Of a DNA stretch of 64,000 bases, positions 26,476 through 42,229 are shown in pieces; the first letter of the stretch is position 1, and every line of letters starts with the position of its first letter. The notes under the pieces are model-generated. The model was given only the letters and a program-made list of their open reading frames with translations. It did no database searches and was not told where the DNA came from. A program made the translations under genes and the position numbers. This DNA comes from Streptomyces collinus (GTDB lineage: Bacteria; Actinomycetota; Actinomycetes; Streptomycetales; Streptomycetaceae): contig NZ_CP133771.1 of the NCBI RefSeq assembly GCF_031348265.1, forward strand, positions 248,001 to 312,000, read 5' to 3'.

Positions 26476-26490
26476 TGAAAATCGTTGTCG
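26476..26490 (+). promoter_or_regulatory. Zur-box-like sequence upstream of COG0523 GTPase
   Basis: TGAAAATCGTTGTCG differs from the Streptomyces Zur box pattern (TGAAAATxATTTTCA) at three positions and lies about 55 bases before the GTPase start. Two better matches occur at 36887 and 40992, so it is read as part of one zinc-responsive set. Binding is inferred, not shown. Confidence 0.55.
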
Positions 26491-26543
26491 TATGCTGAGG
26501 TGCATCCACGCCGTACGACCCTCCTGACCGAGAGGACTCCCCC

Positions 26544-27740
26544 GTGGCCGAGCCCGAGCCGCTGACGCCCATGCCCTCGCAACGCCTCCCCGTCACCGTG
26601 CTGTCGGGGTTTCTCGGCGCCGGGAAGACGACCCTCCTCAACCACGTCCTCACCAACCGCGAGGGCCTGCGGGTGGCGGTGATCGTCAACGACATGAGCG
26701 AGATCAACATCGACGCCGCCCTCGTGCGCGGGGGCGAAGCAGCCCTGTCCCGCACGGAGGAGCGGCTGGTGGAGATGACCAACGGCTGCATCTGCTGCAC
26801 CTTGCGCGACGACCTGCTGGAGGAGGTCGAACGGCTCGCCGAGGACGGCCGCTTCGACTACCTCCTCATCGAGTCCAGCGGCATCTCCGAGCCGATGCCG
26901 GTCGCCGCCACCTTCGCCTTCGCCCGGGACGACGGCGCCACCCTTCAGGACGTCGCCCGGCTGGACACCATGGTCACCGTCGTCGACGCCGCCAACTTCC
27001 TCGCCGAGCTGGGCACCGGTGACGACCTGGCCGAACGGGGCCTGGCTCCCTACGAGGACGACGAGCGCACCGTGAGCGACCTGCTGATCGACCAGGTCGA
27101 GTTCGCCGACGTGATCGTCCTCAACAAGCTGGATCTGGTCGGTGAGGCCGACGCGGACCGGGTGCGCGGGGTGCTGGCACGGCTGAATCCGACGGCCCGT
27201 CTGATCCCCGCCGTGCACGGCCGGATCGGCGTGCGCGACGTCCTGGAGACCGGGCGGTTCGACCTGGAGCGCGCACAGCAGGCGCCGGGCTGGGTGCGGG
27301 AGCTCAACGGCGACCACGTTCCCGAGACCGAGGAGTACGGCATCTCCTCCCTGGTCTTCCGGTCCACCGTGCCGTTCCACCCCGGGCGGCTGTGGGACTT
27401 CGTCACCGGAGAACTGGACGGTGGAGCACACGGCCAAGTGCTGCGCTCCAAGGGCTTCTTCACCCTGGCCGGGCGTGAGGGCGTGACGGGCCTGTGGTCA
27501 CAGGCCGGATCCGTCGCCCGCTTCGAGCCGTCCGGGGTCCGGGACACCGACGCGCCCCACGCCCAGGAGCTGGTGTTCATCGGTGTCGGTCTGCGGGAGC
27601 CGGGTCTGCGTGCCGCCCTGGCCGGATGCCTGCTGGCCGTCGGCGAGCAGCTCCCCGCCGACGATCCCTTCCCTCCGTGGGACACCGGGGACGTCTGCGA
27701 TCTGGAGCACGAGCACGCGCGGGCGGCGGCGGCCGTCTAG
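26544..27740 (+). CDS. COG0523 metal-chaperone GTPase
   Basis: This 398-residue protein starts at a GTG following GAGAGGAC. It has the G3E-family Walker A GFLGAGKTT (22-30), the metal-binding CICC (82-85), ESSGISEP (switch II region), VIVLNKLDLVG (NKxD) and a C-terminal CobW_C domain (GFFTLAGREG, LVFIGVGLR). COG0523 proteins deliver zinc to client enzymes or help survive zinc limitation. A Zur-like box lies upstream and a Zur-like regulator follows, separated by a terminator. It probably acts as a zinc-limitation chaperone for the same regulon as the RiPP and uptake genes. Confidence 0.92.
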   Translation: MAEPEPLTPMPSQRLPVTVLSGFLGAGKTTLLNHVLTNREGLRVAVIVNDMSEINIDAALVRGGEAALSRTEERLVEMTNGCICCTLRDDLLEEVERLAEDGRFDYLLIESSGISEPMPVAATFAFARDDGATLQDVARLDTMVTVVDAANFLAELGTGDDLAERGLAPYEDDERTVSDLLIDQVEFADVIVLNKLDLVGEADADRVRGVLARLNPTARLIPAVHGRIGVRDVLETGRFDLERAQQAPGWVRELNGDHVPETEEYGISSLVFRSTVPFHPGRLWDFVTGELDGGAHGQVLRSKGFFTLAGREGVTGLWSQAGSVARFEPSGVRDTDAPHAQELVFIGVGLREPGLRAALAGCLLAVGEQLPADDPFPPWDTGDVCDLEHEHARAAAAV

Positions 27741-27754
27741 CCGGAGCACGGGCG

Positions 27755-27790
27755 CGTCCGGGCACCGTGTCGACGCCCGGACGGCCTTTT
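27755..27790 (+). terminator. Terminator after COG0523 gene
   Basis: A 9-bp perfect stem (CGTCCGGGC 27755-27763 with GCCCGGACG 27775-27783) with an 11-base loop is followed by GCCTTTT. It lies 15 bases after the GTPase stop and 25 bases before the Zur-like start, so the regulator should have its own promoter or depend on read-through. Confidence 0.85.
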
Positions 27791-39970: not shown

Positions 39971-40944
39971 CGCAGCGCGGCCGTGGCCTCGTCGAGGACG
40001 ATGCCCAGCGAACGGGTGCCGCGTCCCTTGGCCCACACCTCTGAGTTCACCTCGTGGACGTCGCCGTTCTGCACTGCCGGGATCTTGCTCCAGAGGGGGT
40101 TCTCGGCCAGCTTCTCCGAGAGCTTGCCGTCCGCGTCACCGAAGCTCATCGTCTCGACGAACAGCACGTCGACGTTCCGAGCGAGGATCTCCTCCAGGCT
40201 GTAACTGCCCTCGACACCACGGGACTTCCACGGGTACCGGGCGATCTTCGGGAACAGGCTCGCGGCGACGTCGGCCTCGGGGGCGGCGACGCCGAAGTTC
40301 TCGTCACTGCCGTAGATGATGAGTGCGGTCTTGTCGCCCGGCGTCTTCTCGGCCTCGGCGAGTTTGGCACGGAAGGCCTTCTCGGCCTTCTCGCCTTCGG
40401 CGGTGCGGCCGGTCAGGGCGGCCGCGTCGCGCAGGTAACCGACGCTGTCCTCCCAGGTCTCGGGCTGCATGGGCCAGAACGTGGTGGCGCCCTTCAGGGC
40501 CGGAGCGAGCTTGCCGTGGGTGTCTCCCAGCCCGATGACCAGGTCGGGCTTGTGGGAGAGGATCGACTCCACCTCCGGGGCGATGAACCCCCCGGGGATG
40601 ACGTCGACTTCCCTGGCCTTCTCCTCCCCCAGGAAACCGGGGTGGGAGAGCAGCGCGCTGTTGGTGGCCGTCGGGACGATGCCCAGTTCGGTCAGGATGT
40701 CGTCGCAGAGCGCGAACAGGCAGACGATGCGCTCGGGTTCCTTCTGCACGGCGACCTTGACGCCGTTCGTGTCGGTCACCTCCGTCGACGCCTTGATGGG
40801 TTCGACGGTGACCTCGGTCCTCGCCGCGGGCTTGGCCTCGTCACTCGCGGGCTCGTCGGACGACGAGCCGCAGCCGGCCAGCACGGAACCCACCAACGCT
40901 GCGGTGATCCAACTGCGGACGAATCTCGACGGTGAGCGCAGCAT
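39967..40944 (-). CDS. Metal-chelate-binding lipoprotein (periplasmic-binding type)
   Basis: This 325-residue lipoprotein has signal SWITAALVGSVLAGC (lipobox LAGC) and a type III binding-protein fold: PERIVCLFALCDDILTELGI, GGFIAPEVESILSHKPDLVIGLG, ALIIYGSDENFGVAAPEADVAASLF, NVDVLFVE. Such proteins bind ferric siderophores, cobalamin or heme outside the membrane and deliver them to FecCD permeases. Here the linkage to Zur-type boxes suggests a zinc-loaded chelate. The unusual Cys pair in VCLFALC could contribute to ligand or disulfide formation. First gene of the transport operon; the region upstream holds a Zur-like box. Confidence 0.92.
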   Translation of the reverse strand: MLRSPSRFVRSWITAALVGSVLAGCGSSSDEPASDEAKPAARTEVTVEPIKASTEVTDTNGVKVAVQKEPERIVCLFALCDDILTELGIVPTATNSALLSHPGFLGEEKAREVDVIPGGFIAPEVESILSHKPDLVIGLGDTHGKLAPALKGATTFWPMQPETWEDSVGYLRDAAALTGRTAEGEKAEKAFRAKLAEAEKTPGDKTALIIYGSDENFGVAAPEADVAASLFPKIARYPWKSRGVEGSYSLEEILARNVDVLFVETMSFGDADGKLSEKLAENPLWSKIPAVQNGDVHEVNSEVWAKGRGTRSLGIVLDEATAALR

Positions 40945-40991
40945 CGATGCCCTCGCTTCTTCTCAGGTGCCGGGAACTCACCGAACATACA

Positions 40992-41006
40992 TGATAATCG
41001 TTTTCA
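40992..41006. promoter_or_regulatory. Zur-box-like site between binding-protein and propeller genes
   Basis: TGATAATCGTTTTCA lies 48 bases upstream of the binding-protein start and 24 bases upstream of the divergent propeller start, so it could control both. It differs from the Streptomyces Zur pattern at two or three positions and shows dyad symmetry (TGA...TCA with AA/TT pairs). Confidence 0.62.
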
Positions 41007-41029
41007 GGAGACACTCTTTCGGAGGACCC

Positions 41030-42229
41030 ATGACCACTGCCGCACCCGTCCTGCTCGTCTCCGACCACGTGGCCGGATGCGTCCATGTGCTGACCGTGCC
41101 GGACGGCACCGTCACAGGACGCCTCACCGGCCGCCATCTCTCCGAGCACGCCGGGTTTCTGGCTCTGCCCGGAGGGCGGGTGGCCTGTGTCGACGACCGC
41201 CGGGGGGAACTCCTGGTCCTCGATCCCTTCGGTGAGGAGCTCGTGGAACGCGCCGTACCGGTCGCCGTGCCGGCCGAGCACCTCGCCTGCGACCCGGCCG
41301 GGCGCCGGCTGGCCGTGACCACCGGCCTGGGCAAGAACGCCGAGCCGTGGTCGGACCTGCTGACGGTCGTCGACCTGGCCACCGACGAGACCGCGCGGGT
41401 ACGCACCCGGGTCGGCGAGCCGGGCGTGACGGTGCTGGGCGGCGGCGACCCGCTGGTCGTGCTGCGGCACCGGGAACCCGGGGCGCTGGCCGCACACCGG
41501 TTCGCGGATCTCCTCGCGGCCCCGCCCGGCTGCCCCGTGGTCACACCGCACGAACTCCTGCCGCTGCCCGACGACGGCCACGGCGACGCCCACGCTCCCG
41601 GCTCGGGACACCTGTTCGTGGCCACCGGCGAGGGTGTGCACCGGGCCCGGAGGAAGGACGACACGCTCCTGGCCGAGGCCGTGATCCCGTGGGCAGCACC
41701 CGCCCGGGGCTGGTACCTGCGCCTCGACACCCGGCGGGCGGCGCTGTGGAGCACACTGCGCGGCGGCGCTCCCGACCCGCTGCGGTGGCCGGAGTGGACC
41801 AACCAGGCATGGCGCCACGATCTGGAGACGGGTCGAACGTCCCTGACGGAACTCGGTCCCGGACTGGTCTTCCGGCTGGCTCTCGCCCGGAGCCGGACCG
41901 CGTTCACCCGCATCCACCCCGACGGCGACGAACTGCTCCTTCTCGGCGACGACGGCATCGTCCGCCGCTCCCCCCTGCCCGCGATGGACGGCGCCCCGCG
42001 TCGCGGCGGCACCCCTTGGGAAGGCGTCCAGCGCCGGGCCGTTGCCGCCTCACCCGGCTCCGACTGGGTCGCCGTCACCCGCGGCGGTCACGGCGAAGTC
42101 CACATCGTCGACGCGCGGACGGGCCACGAGGCGGCCCGCCCGCGGCTGAGCACACCGCTGCACCACGGCGGTCACATGGCCCTGCGCAGCCGGGCCGACG
42201 GCGCCGAGGGCGATCTCGTGGGCCGGTGA
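41030..42229 (+). CDS. Cytosolic beta-propeller-like protein (divergent from binding protein)
   Basis: This 399-residue protein has repeated strand-turn units of YncE/WD40-like propellers (LLVSDHVAGCVHVLTVPDG, LAVTTGLGKNAEPWSDLLTVVDLATDE, VAVTRGGHGEVHIVDARTGHE). No signal peptide is present, so it is cytosolic. His-rich stretches (LPDDGHGDAHAPGSGH; HHGGHMAL) could bind metal. Propeller metallochaperones such as AztD accompany zinc importers in other bacteria, but those are exported, so homology is uncertain. ATG at 41030 with GGAGGACCC upstream. Its shared control region suggests co-regulation with the uptake operon. Confidence 0.72.
   Translation: MTTAAPVLLVSDHVAGCVHVLTVPDGTVTGRLTGRHLSEHAGFLALPGGRVACVDDRRGELLVLDPFGEELVERAVPVAVPAEHLACDPAGRRLAVTTGLGKNAEPWSDLLTVVDLATDETARVRTRVGEPGVTVLGGGDPLVVLRHREPGALAAHRFADLLAAPPGCPVVTPHELLPLPDDGHGDAHAPGSGHLFVATGEGVHRARRKDDTLLAEAVIPWAAPARGWYLRLDTRRAALWSTLRGGAPDPLRWPEWTNQAWRHDLETGRTSLTELGPGLVFRLALARSRTAFTRIHPDGDELLLLGDDGIVRRSPLPAMDGAPRRGGTPWEGVQRRAVAASPGSDWVAVTRGGHGEVHIVDARTGHEAARPRLSTPLHHGGHMALRSRADGAEGDLVGR

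Follow-up and report, generated by a model that had tools for sequence, protein, structure and literature searches.

The analysed stretch of DNA (the window, 64,000 nucleotides) comprises bases 248001-312000 of the 8.87-Mb contig NZ_CP133771.1 of Streptomyces collinus and carries an ami gene cluster of the streptamidine family together with Zur-box-like sites. On the minus strand, from 40944 to 28269, there follow genes for a binding lipoprotein, two FecCD permeases, an ATPase, a precursor peptide, a leader-binding protein of the RiPP recognition element (RRE)/E1-like type, a hydrolase, a YcaO protein, a SagB-like protein and two ATP-binding cassette (ABC) exporters. A gene for a propeller protein is divergently oriented to the binding-protein gene, and genes for a GTPase and a Fur-family protein are located on the plus strand downstream of the operon. 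A preliminary description, made from the sequence alone, had named a COG0523 GTPase, a Zur-like regulator, a YcaO/SagB operon for a ribosomally synthesised and post-translationally modified peptide (RiPP), a FecBCD-type importer and a propeller, and all are present, as indicated by matches to PF02492, PF01475 and the models for YcaO, the precursor and other products. The Zur-box-like sites that it placed before the GTPase, the precursor and the importer were found at 26476, 36887 and 40992. Features of the locus are given below, with mismatches of the sites counted against the consensus TGAAAATCATTTTCA.

26476-26490, plus strand: Zur-box-like site TGAAAATCGTTGTCG, 54 bp before the GTPase start; 3 mismatches
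26544-27740, plus strand: COG0523 (ZigA-like) GTPase; PF02492 193 bits, NCBIfam ZigA 515 bits (under the cut-off of 600)
27800-28237, plus strand: Fur-family regulator; PF01475
28269-30014, minus strand: amiT2-like ABC exporter
30011-31750, minus strand: amiT1-like ABC exporter
31747-32913, minus strand: amiE-like SagB/nitroreductase-family dehydrogenase; TIGR03605 52.5 bits (under the cut-off of 78.4), PF00881 33.3 bits (above 23.5)
32910-34289, minus strand: amiD-like YcaO protein; PF02624 139.6 bits, TIGR03604 200.8 bits (under the cut-off of 219.25)
34286-35767, minus strand: amiC-like CocE/NonD hydrolase; TIGR00976 194.9 bits (cut-off 66.3)
35764-36612, minus strand: amiB-like RRE/E1-like leader-binding protein; TIGR03882 23.1 bits (under the cut-off of 36.9)
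36654-36690, minus strand: perfect 14-bp stem-loop after amiA and before amiB
36713-36826, minus strand: amiA precursor of the streptamidine family, 37 residues; NF040714 61.3 bits (cut-off 40), conserved stretch LAHDSASHSNALVENPF
36880-36908, minus strand: predicted amiA promoter TTGAAT-17-TAGCGT, inside the end of amiF4
36887-36901, minus strand: Zur-box-like site TGAAAATCAGATTCA in the amiA promoter spacer; 2 mismatches
36883-37704, minus strand: amiF4-like importer ATPase
37725-38732, minus strand: amiF3-like FecCD permease
38729-39970, minus strand: amiF2-like FecCD permease; first start taken within a longer open reading frame
39967-40944, minus strand: amiF1-like substrate-binding lipoprotein of the metal-chelate class
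40992-41006, plus strand: Zur-box-like site TGATAATCGTTTTCA between the divergent amiF1 and amiX; 2 mismatches
41030-42229, plus strand: amiX, eight-bladed-type β-propeller (by model) with AztD as nearest fold; no Pfam match

Relation to the published streptamidine cluster

The window precursor exceeds the cut-off of the streptamidine model NF040714, and the gene set amiB, C, D, E, F1-F4, T1 and T2 is complete, with amiB, D and E matching NCBIfam models below the cut-offs. Gene set, gene order (amiF1-F4, A, B, C, D, E, T1, T2, with amiX upstream) and precursor family are those of the ami cluster published for Streptomyces albidoflavus J1074 (PMC8442711). Since the precursor matches the streptamidine family and the operon corresponds to the published ami cluster, the RiPP class is one already described. 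An azole RiPP of unknown class is hence ruled out by NF040714, and the azol(in)e RiPP of the preliminary description belongs with streptamidine, an amidine peptide. Streptamidine consists of HLSATH with an amidine ring (PMC8442711), and the corresponding core in the window is, by analogy, HDSASH. YcaO and SagB-like genes are present, and the only pointer to an azole is the mass fit of an ion at m/z 414.69 (see below). How much precursor is made relative to the enzymes may be set by the stem-loop that separates amiA from amiB.

Precursors matching NF040714 were found in 39 of 295 sampled genomes of the genus and in 3 of 396 genomes of an even phylum sample, the source genome included. NF040715, the model for repeat-type relatives, gave 0 of 396 genomes and also no match in any control, and is therefore uninformative. 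The paper on the J1074 cluster is without mention of Zur, of an AztD-like AmiX or of a longer oxidised product, and the word 'Zur' was absent from its main text in a word search (PMC8442711). No report of Zur at ami clusters, and no paper linking YcaO enzymes with Zur and a zinc metallophore, was found in the literature searched, a search that reached few subscription journals. Relative to that literature, the streptamidine family is known, and the putative Zur operators, the zinc-regulon neighbours and the AztD-like partner are new.

Zur-box-like sites in the genome and in related loci

The consensus TGAAAATCATTTTCA was compared with the S. coelicolor Zur motif derived by chromatin immunoprecipitation (ChIP), TGANNATSATNNTCA (PMC5472717). 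Over both strands of the window TGAAAATCATTTTCA has 5 matches, as compared with a mean of 0.03 and a maximum of 2 in 100 shuffles. The sites at 26476, 36887 and 40992 show 2, 1 and 1 mismatches, respectively, to the ChIP-derived motif. The latter occurs at 18 places with ≤2 mismatches in the window and at 123 places with ≤1 mismatch genome-wide, and thus would not alone single out the three sites.

A scan of the genome with TGAAAATCATTTTCA at ≤2 mismatches gave 8 places, of which 2 are in the ami cluster. Others are at a znuA-like gene, which 2.7 kb separate from the gene for the closest Fur-family protein, between zinc-free-type ribosomal genes, and at an azt-like locus near AztD; except for AztD and Fur, these genes were read by eye from translations. 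The remaining three of the 8, at 6223327, 6385829 and 8159948 of the genome (G000), have 2 mismatches to TGAAAATCATTTTCA and no clear zinc gene adjoining. At ≤3 mismatches, the two strands of the genome hold 13 and 16 places, whereas the reversed pattern gave 1 on each strand. The genome's own AztD match (7234960-7235988) holds one in-frame TAA.

The Zur-box-like site at 36887 fills the spacer of the predicted amiA promoter (36908-36880) and hence is placed where a repressor would sit. Of 89 loci, 30 have a -35/-10 pair that spans the box; any such pair was present in 7 of 2000 random windows. Since the amiA promoter lies inside the end of amiF4, the published loss of product on deletion of amiF1-F4 could be polar (PMC8442711).

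Box counts refer to streptamidine-type ami loci, two-YcaO (motif B) and Firmicutes relatives lying outside the sample, and they are counts of non-independent events. A TGAAAATCATTTTCA site with ≤3 mismatches is present ≤500 bp upstream of amiB in 59/64 loci; four of the remaining five share a single box between amiX and amiA, and in L077 (L numbers denote related loci) the box is further off. At amiX, such a site was found in 61/61 loci. A set of 30 loci from the 39 genomes positive for the precursor model, two of which overlap the set from the YcaO-protein scan, has the site at -75 to -95 of amiA in every locus (30/30). With the ChIP motif, 77 of 88 distinct loci have a site with ≤1 mismatch within 200 bp upstream of amiA (40 loci with 0, 37 with 1, 6 with 2 and 4 with 3 mismatches, and 1 without a site in the 200 bp), the background being 110 of 6753 200-bp windows, real sites counted in. 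Regions surrounding other YcaO genes served as a control (14 stretches, 16-20 kb each, 274,712 bases in total). Among ami loci of at least 15 kb, 62/62 contain a TGAAAATCATTTTCA site with ≤3 mismatches versus 0/14 control stretches, and 62/62 contain the ChIP motif with ≤1 mismatch versus 3/14. Ami loci cut short (L001-L003) show no Zur-like site, because the boxes are at a greater distance from the YcaO gene. In Rhodococcus, the box TGACAATCGTTTTCA is located between divergent amiX and amiA and thus outside amiF4; hence, conservation of the box is not explained by the coding end of amiF4. As predicted from these sequence data, control of the ami cluster by Zur is very likely.

Conserved genes, neighbours and the AmiX protein

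Related loci comprised 67 from the YcaO-protein scan of named genomes and 2 from whole genomes. Of these 69, matches to SagB were present in 66 and to amiX in 61; the binding protein was matched in 58 and each of the exporters in 68, where exporter and ATPase counts may contain cross-matches among ABC ATPases. The 11 loci without the binding protein include 7 cut by contig ends and 4 (L051, L061, L065 and L066, ~16-19.2 kb) with another FecBCD operon. This substitute operon is convergent to the ami genes, its permeases and ATPase are 34-40% identical, and a Zur-like site of 3-4 mismatches is located upstream in the 4 loci; its binding protein was read in L051 only. The amiX gene is absent from 7 loci cut by contig ends and from L091.

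In the precursors, the stretch LAHxSA[S/T]HSNALVENPF is invariant over 49 distinct DNA versions save x (D, L, A or Q), S/T and one A/P position, and its codons vary synonymously at 15 of the 17 positions, frequently in only a few sequences. Thus, constraint on the residues beyond the known product is as strong as on the product itself. The precursor ends in NPFD in Rhodococcus pNit and in NPFEV in G178. G178, a genome of another family, has three ami copies (L130, L131 and L132), two of them on one 69.6-kb contig. On the Rhodococcus rhodochrous plasmid pNit (L163, 8748-9878, minus strand), amiX is present but unannotated, and a hypothetical gene is annotated on the opposite strand.

Of the parts named in the preliminary description, the RiPP operon, importer, propeller and boxes recur together in relatives; the GTPase and Fur genes do not share in this. 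A Fur-like gene was matched in just 6 of the 69 loci, which rules out the local gene as a conserved regulator. The GTPase/Fur pair is placed as in the window in L023 and L048, and a less similar pair is found on the other side in L039. As judged by sequence, the pair are neighbours outside the conserved ami cluster. The window Fur-family protein is 49% identical to the Fur-family protein near the znuA-like gene and ≤35% identical to the other three of the genome.

Genes for ribosomal proteins of putatively zinc-free type (L28, L31, L32, L33, S14 and S18) adjoin the ami cluster in 15 of 73 loci, a count that includes L133 (the source of five queries) and its close relative L090. Genes for COG0523 proteins adjoin it in 17 of 73. 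These neighbours occur on either side of the cluster in several arrangements, and among the 64 loci with a length of 15 kb or more, 16 have one or both kinds, versus 0 of 14 control stretches. The Zur targets of S. coelicolor include these ribosomal genes and a COG0523 gene (PMC6103462).

In a model-based fold comparison, AztD is nearest to the predicted fold of AmiX. AmiX gave no NCBIfam match at E 0.1 or better, and profile comparison with AztD gave 2.5% probability; assignment to the AztD family was rejected as being without sequence support, the likeness being of fold only. His40, His84, His184 and His296 are invariant in the AmiX alignment, and their placement on the AztD zinc sites was not achieved. 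Defence-system models gave no match to AmiX or the hydrolase. The AztABCD system is Zur-controlled, as is predicted for the ami system, and resembles it in having a propeller protein beside an ABC importer; however, AztD is secreted and zinc-binding (PMC6689063), whereas AmiX has neither a visible signal peptide nor a match to the AztD model, and the ami importer is of the chelate type. The nearest solved relatives of the AmiF1-like binding protein are siderophore-binding by sequence (YfiY, E 3.4e-19), and by fold FecB, YfiY and HtsA. This similarity suggests that the ligand is a metal chelate and not free zinc.

Possible product and role of the ami system

AmiE is essential although streptamidine is unoxidised, and the reason was left open (PMC8442711). 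An ion at m/z 414.69 observed in the heterologous host was left unassigned in the same work. For doubly charged HLSATHSN (His1-Asn8) carrying an amidine (-H2O) and an azole (-H2O -H2), the calculated value is 414.6910. For three family precursors with the HLSATH core, this was the sole match within 0.005 when sub-peptide, dehydration, oxidation and charge were combined in 22,056 to 25,124 ways, and acetyl and sodium forms added no further match. By chance, ~0.8% of 0.01-wide bins fit some product that starts at His1, and 12-14% fit some sub-peptide. The fit supports the authors' option that an oxidised part is cut off (PMC8442711) and suggests that the published metal tests used a fragment. 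Streptamidine may thus be a fragment of the true product, and the active molecule probably extends beyond streptamidine, at least to the oxidised His1-Asn8 form.

Given the conserved Zur-box-like sites before the ami genes, the peptide is likely a zinc scavenger. We consider it reasonably probable that the ami cluster makes a secreted zinc-binding peptide under zinc starvation, which is taken up again via the FecBCD-type importer; an importer of the metal-chelate class and exporters are encoded within the same cluster. Zinc-loaded Zur would occupy the amiA promoter spacer and block amiA, and a drop in zinc would allow AmiA to be produced. AmiB, AmiD and AmiE would then form the amidine and probably one azole, AmiC would cleave the leader, and AmiT1/T2 would export the peptide. 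AmiF1-F4 would take back its zinc complex, and AmiX may handle zinc or the zinc complex in the cytosol. Zinc binding and re-uptake would be most plausible with a longer, oxidised product. A more specific and only tentative proposal is that ami clusters encode the first ribosomal zincophores, with a true product oxidised by AmiE to at least Asn8, so as to carry the amidine and an azole beside histidine, streptamidine being its breakdown fragment and AmiX a cytosolic AztD-fold protein that removes zinc. Under this proposal, streptamidine would fail zinc-binding tests because it is a breakdown fragment. Methanobactins are modified ribosomal peptides that serve as metal carriers, as the ami product would, and they differ in the metal, copper, and in the enzymes. 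The coelibactin cluster of S. coelicolor is a Zur-controlled biosynthesis locus for a predicted zinc metallophore in Streptomyces, with non-ribosomal synthetases in place of a ribosomal precursor (PMC5472717).

Several observations weigh against a zinc-scavenging peptide. Purified streptamidine bound neither zinc nor six other metal ions, the amiD mutant was without a metal-starvation phenotype, and streptamidine was detected in ordinary media (PMC8442711). AmiX is not detectably homologous to AztD by sequence, no signal peptide was seen in it by eye, and the L091 cluster has no amiX nearby. A clear -35/-10 pair frames the box in only 30 of the 89 loci, and the three ami copies of G178 have one 3-mismatch site, one 4-mismatch site only and no Zur-like site, respectively. 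The match to m/z 414.69 is post hoc, and the J1074 AmiA sequence and the charge of the ion were assumed. Of the zincophore reading in the preliminary description, conservation thus lends strong support to Zur control of precursor, importer and propeller, and the binding protein belongs to the metal-chelate class, whereas the six-residue product known so far reportedly binds neither zinc nor six other metal ions and is dispensable in metal starvation (PMC8442711).

The findings on streptamidine and the amiD mutant would also be accounted for if the cluster is controlled by Zur and the peptide is a signal or a competition agent under zinc shortage, with the importer taking up the signal or a foreign metallophore; Zur regulons also hold genes other than those for uptake (PMC6103462). 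This is unlikely, as antibacterial or antifungal activity was not found (PMC8442711), the importer is kept or swapped for another FecBCD operon in loci that are long enough, and the binding protein is nearest to siderophore-binding proteins. Metal specificity is not readable from sequence, and importers of this class are known mainly for iron chelates; hence, the peptide might carry another metal or metals (e.g. copper, cobalt or nickel), with Zur control reflecting cross-talk in metal supply. The conserved sites fit the Zur motif, however, the neighbours are zinc-regulon genes, and the six further metals were also unbound by streptamidine (PMC8442711), which makes this option improbable.

Reading of the boxes by a different Fur-family regulator, and thus a response to a different cue, has very little to recommend it. 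Zur binding is predicted, and the genome encodes five Fur-family genes, one of them inside the window. Nevertheless, the boxes are the same as those of the genome's own znuA-like, ribosomal-paralogue and azt-like loci and fit the S. coelicolor Zur ChIP motif, and they are kept in relatives even though a local Fur-like gene is matched in so few of these.

Import of metal by the ami system was already suspected by the authors of the J1074 study from the fec-like genes (PMC8442711). If the peptide is a zinc scavenger, a ribosomal class would be added to the zinc metallophores, the requirement for the dehydrogenase AmiE despite an unoxidised streptamidine would be explained, and a molecule as widespread as the streptamidine-type precursors of the genus imply would have a purpose. 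The mass assignment names a molecule to seek, and the putative Zur boxes at the ami promoters indicate zinc starvation as the growth condition for its production.

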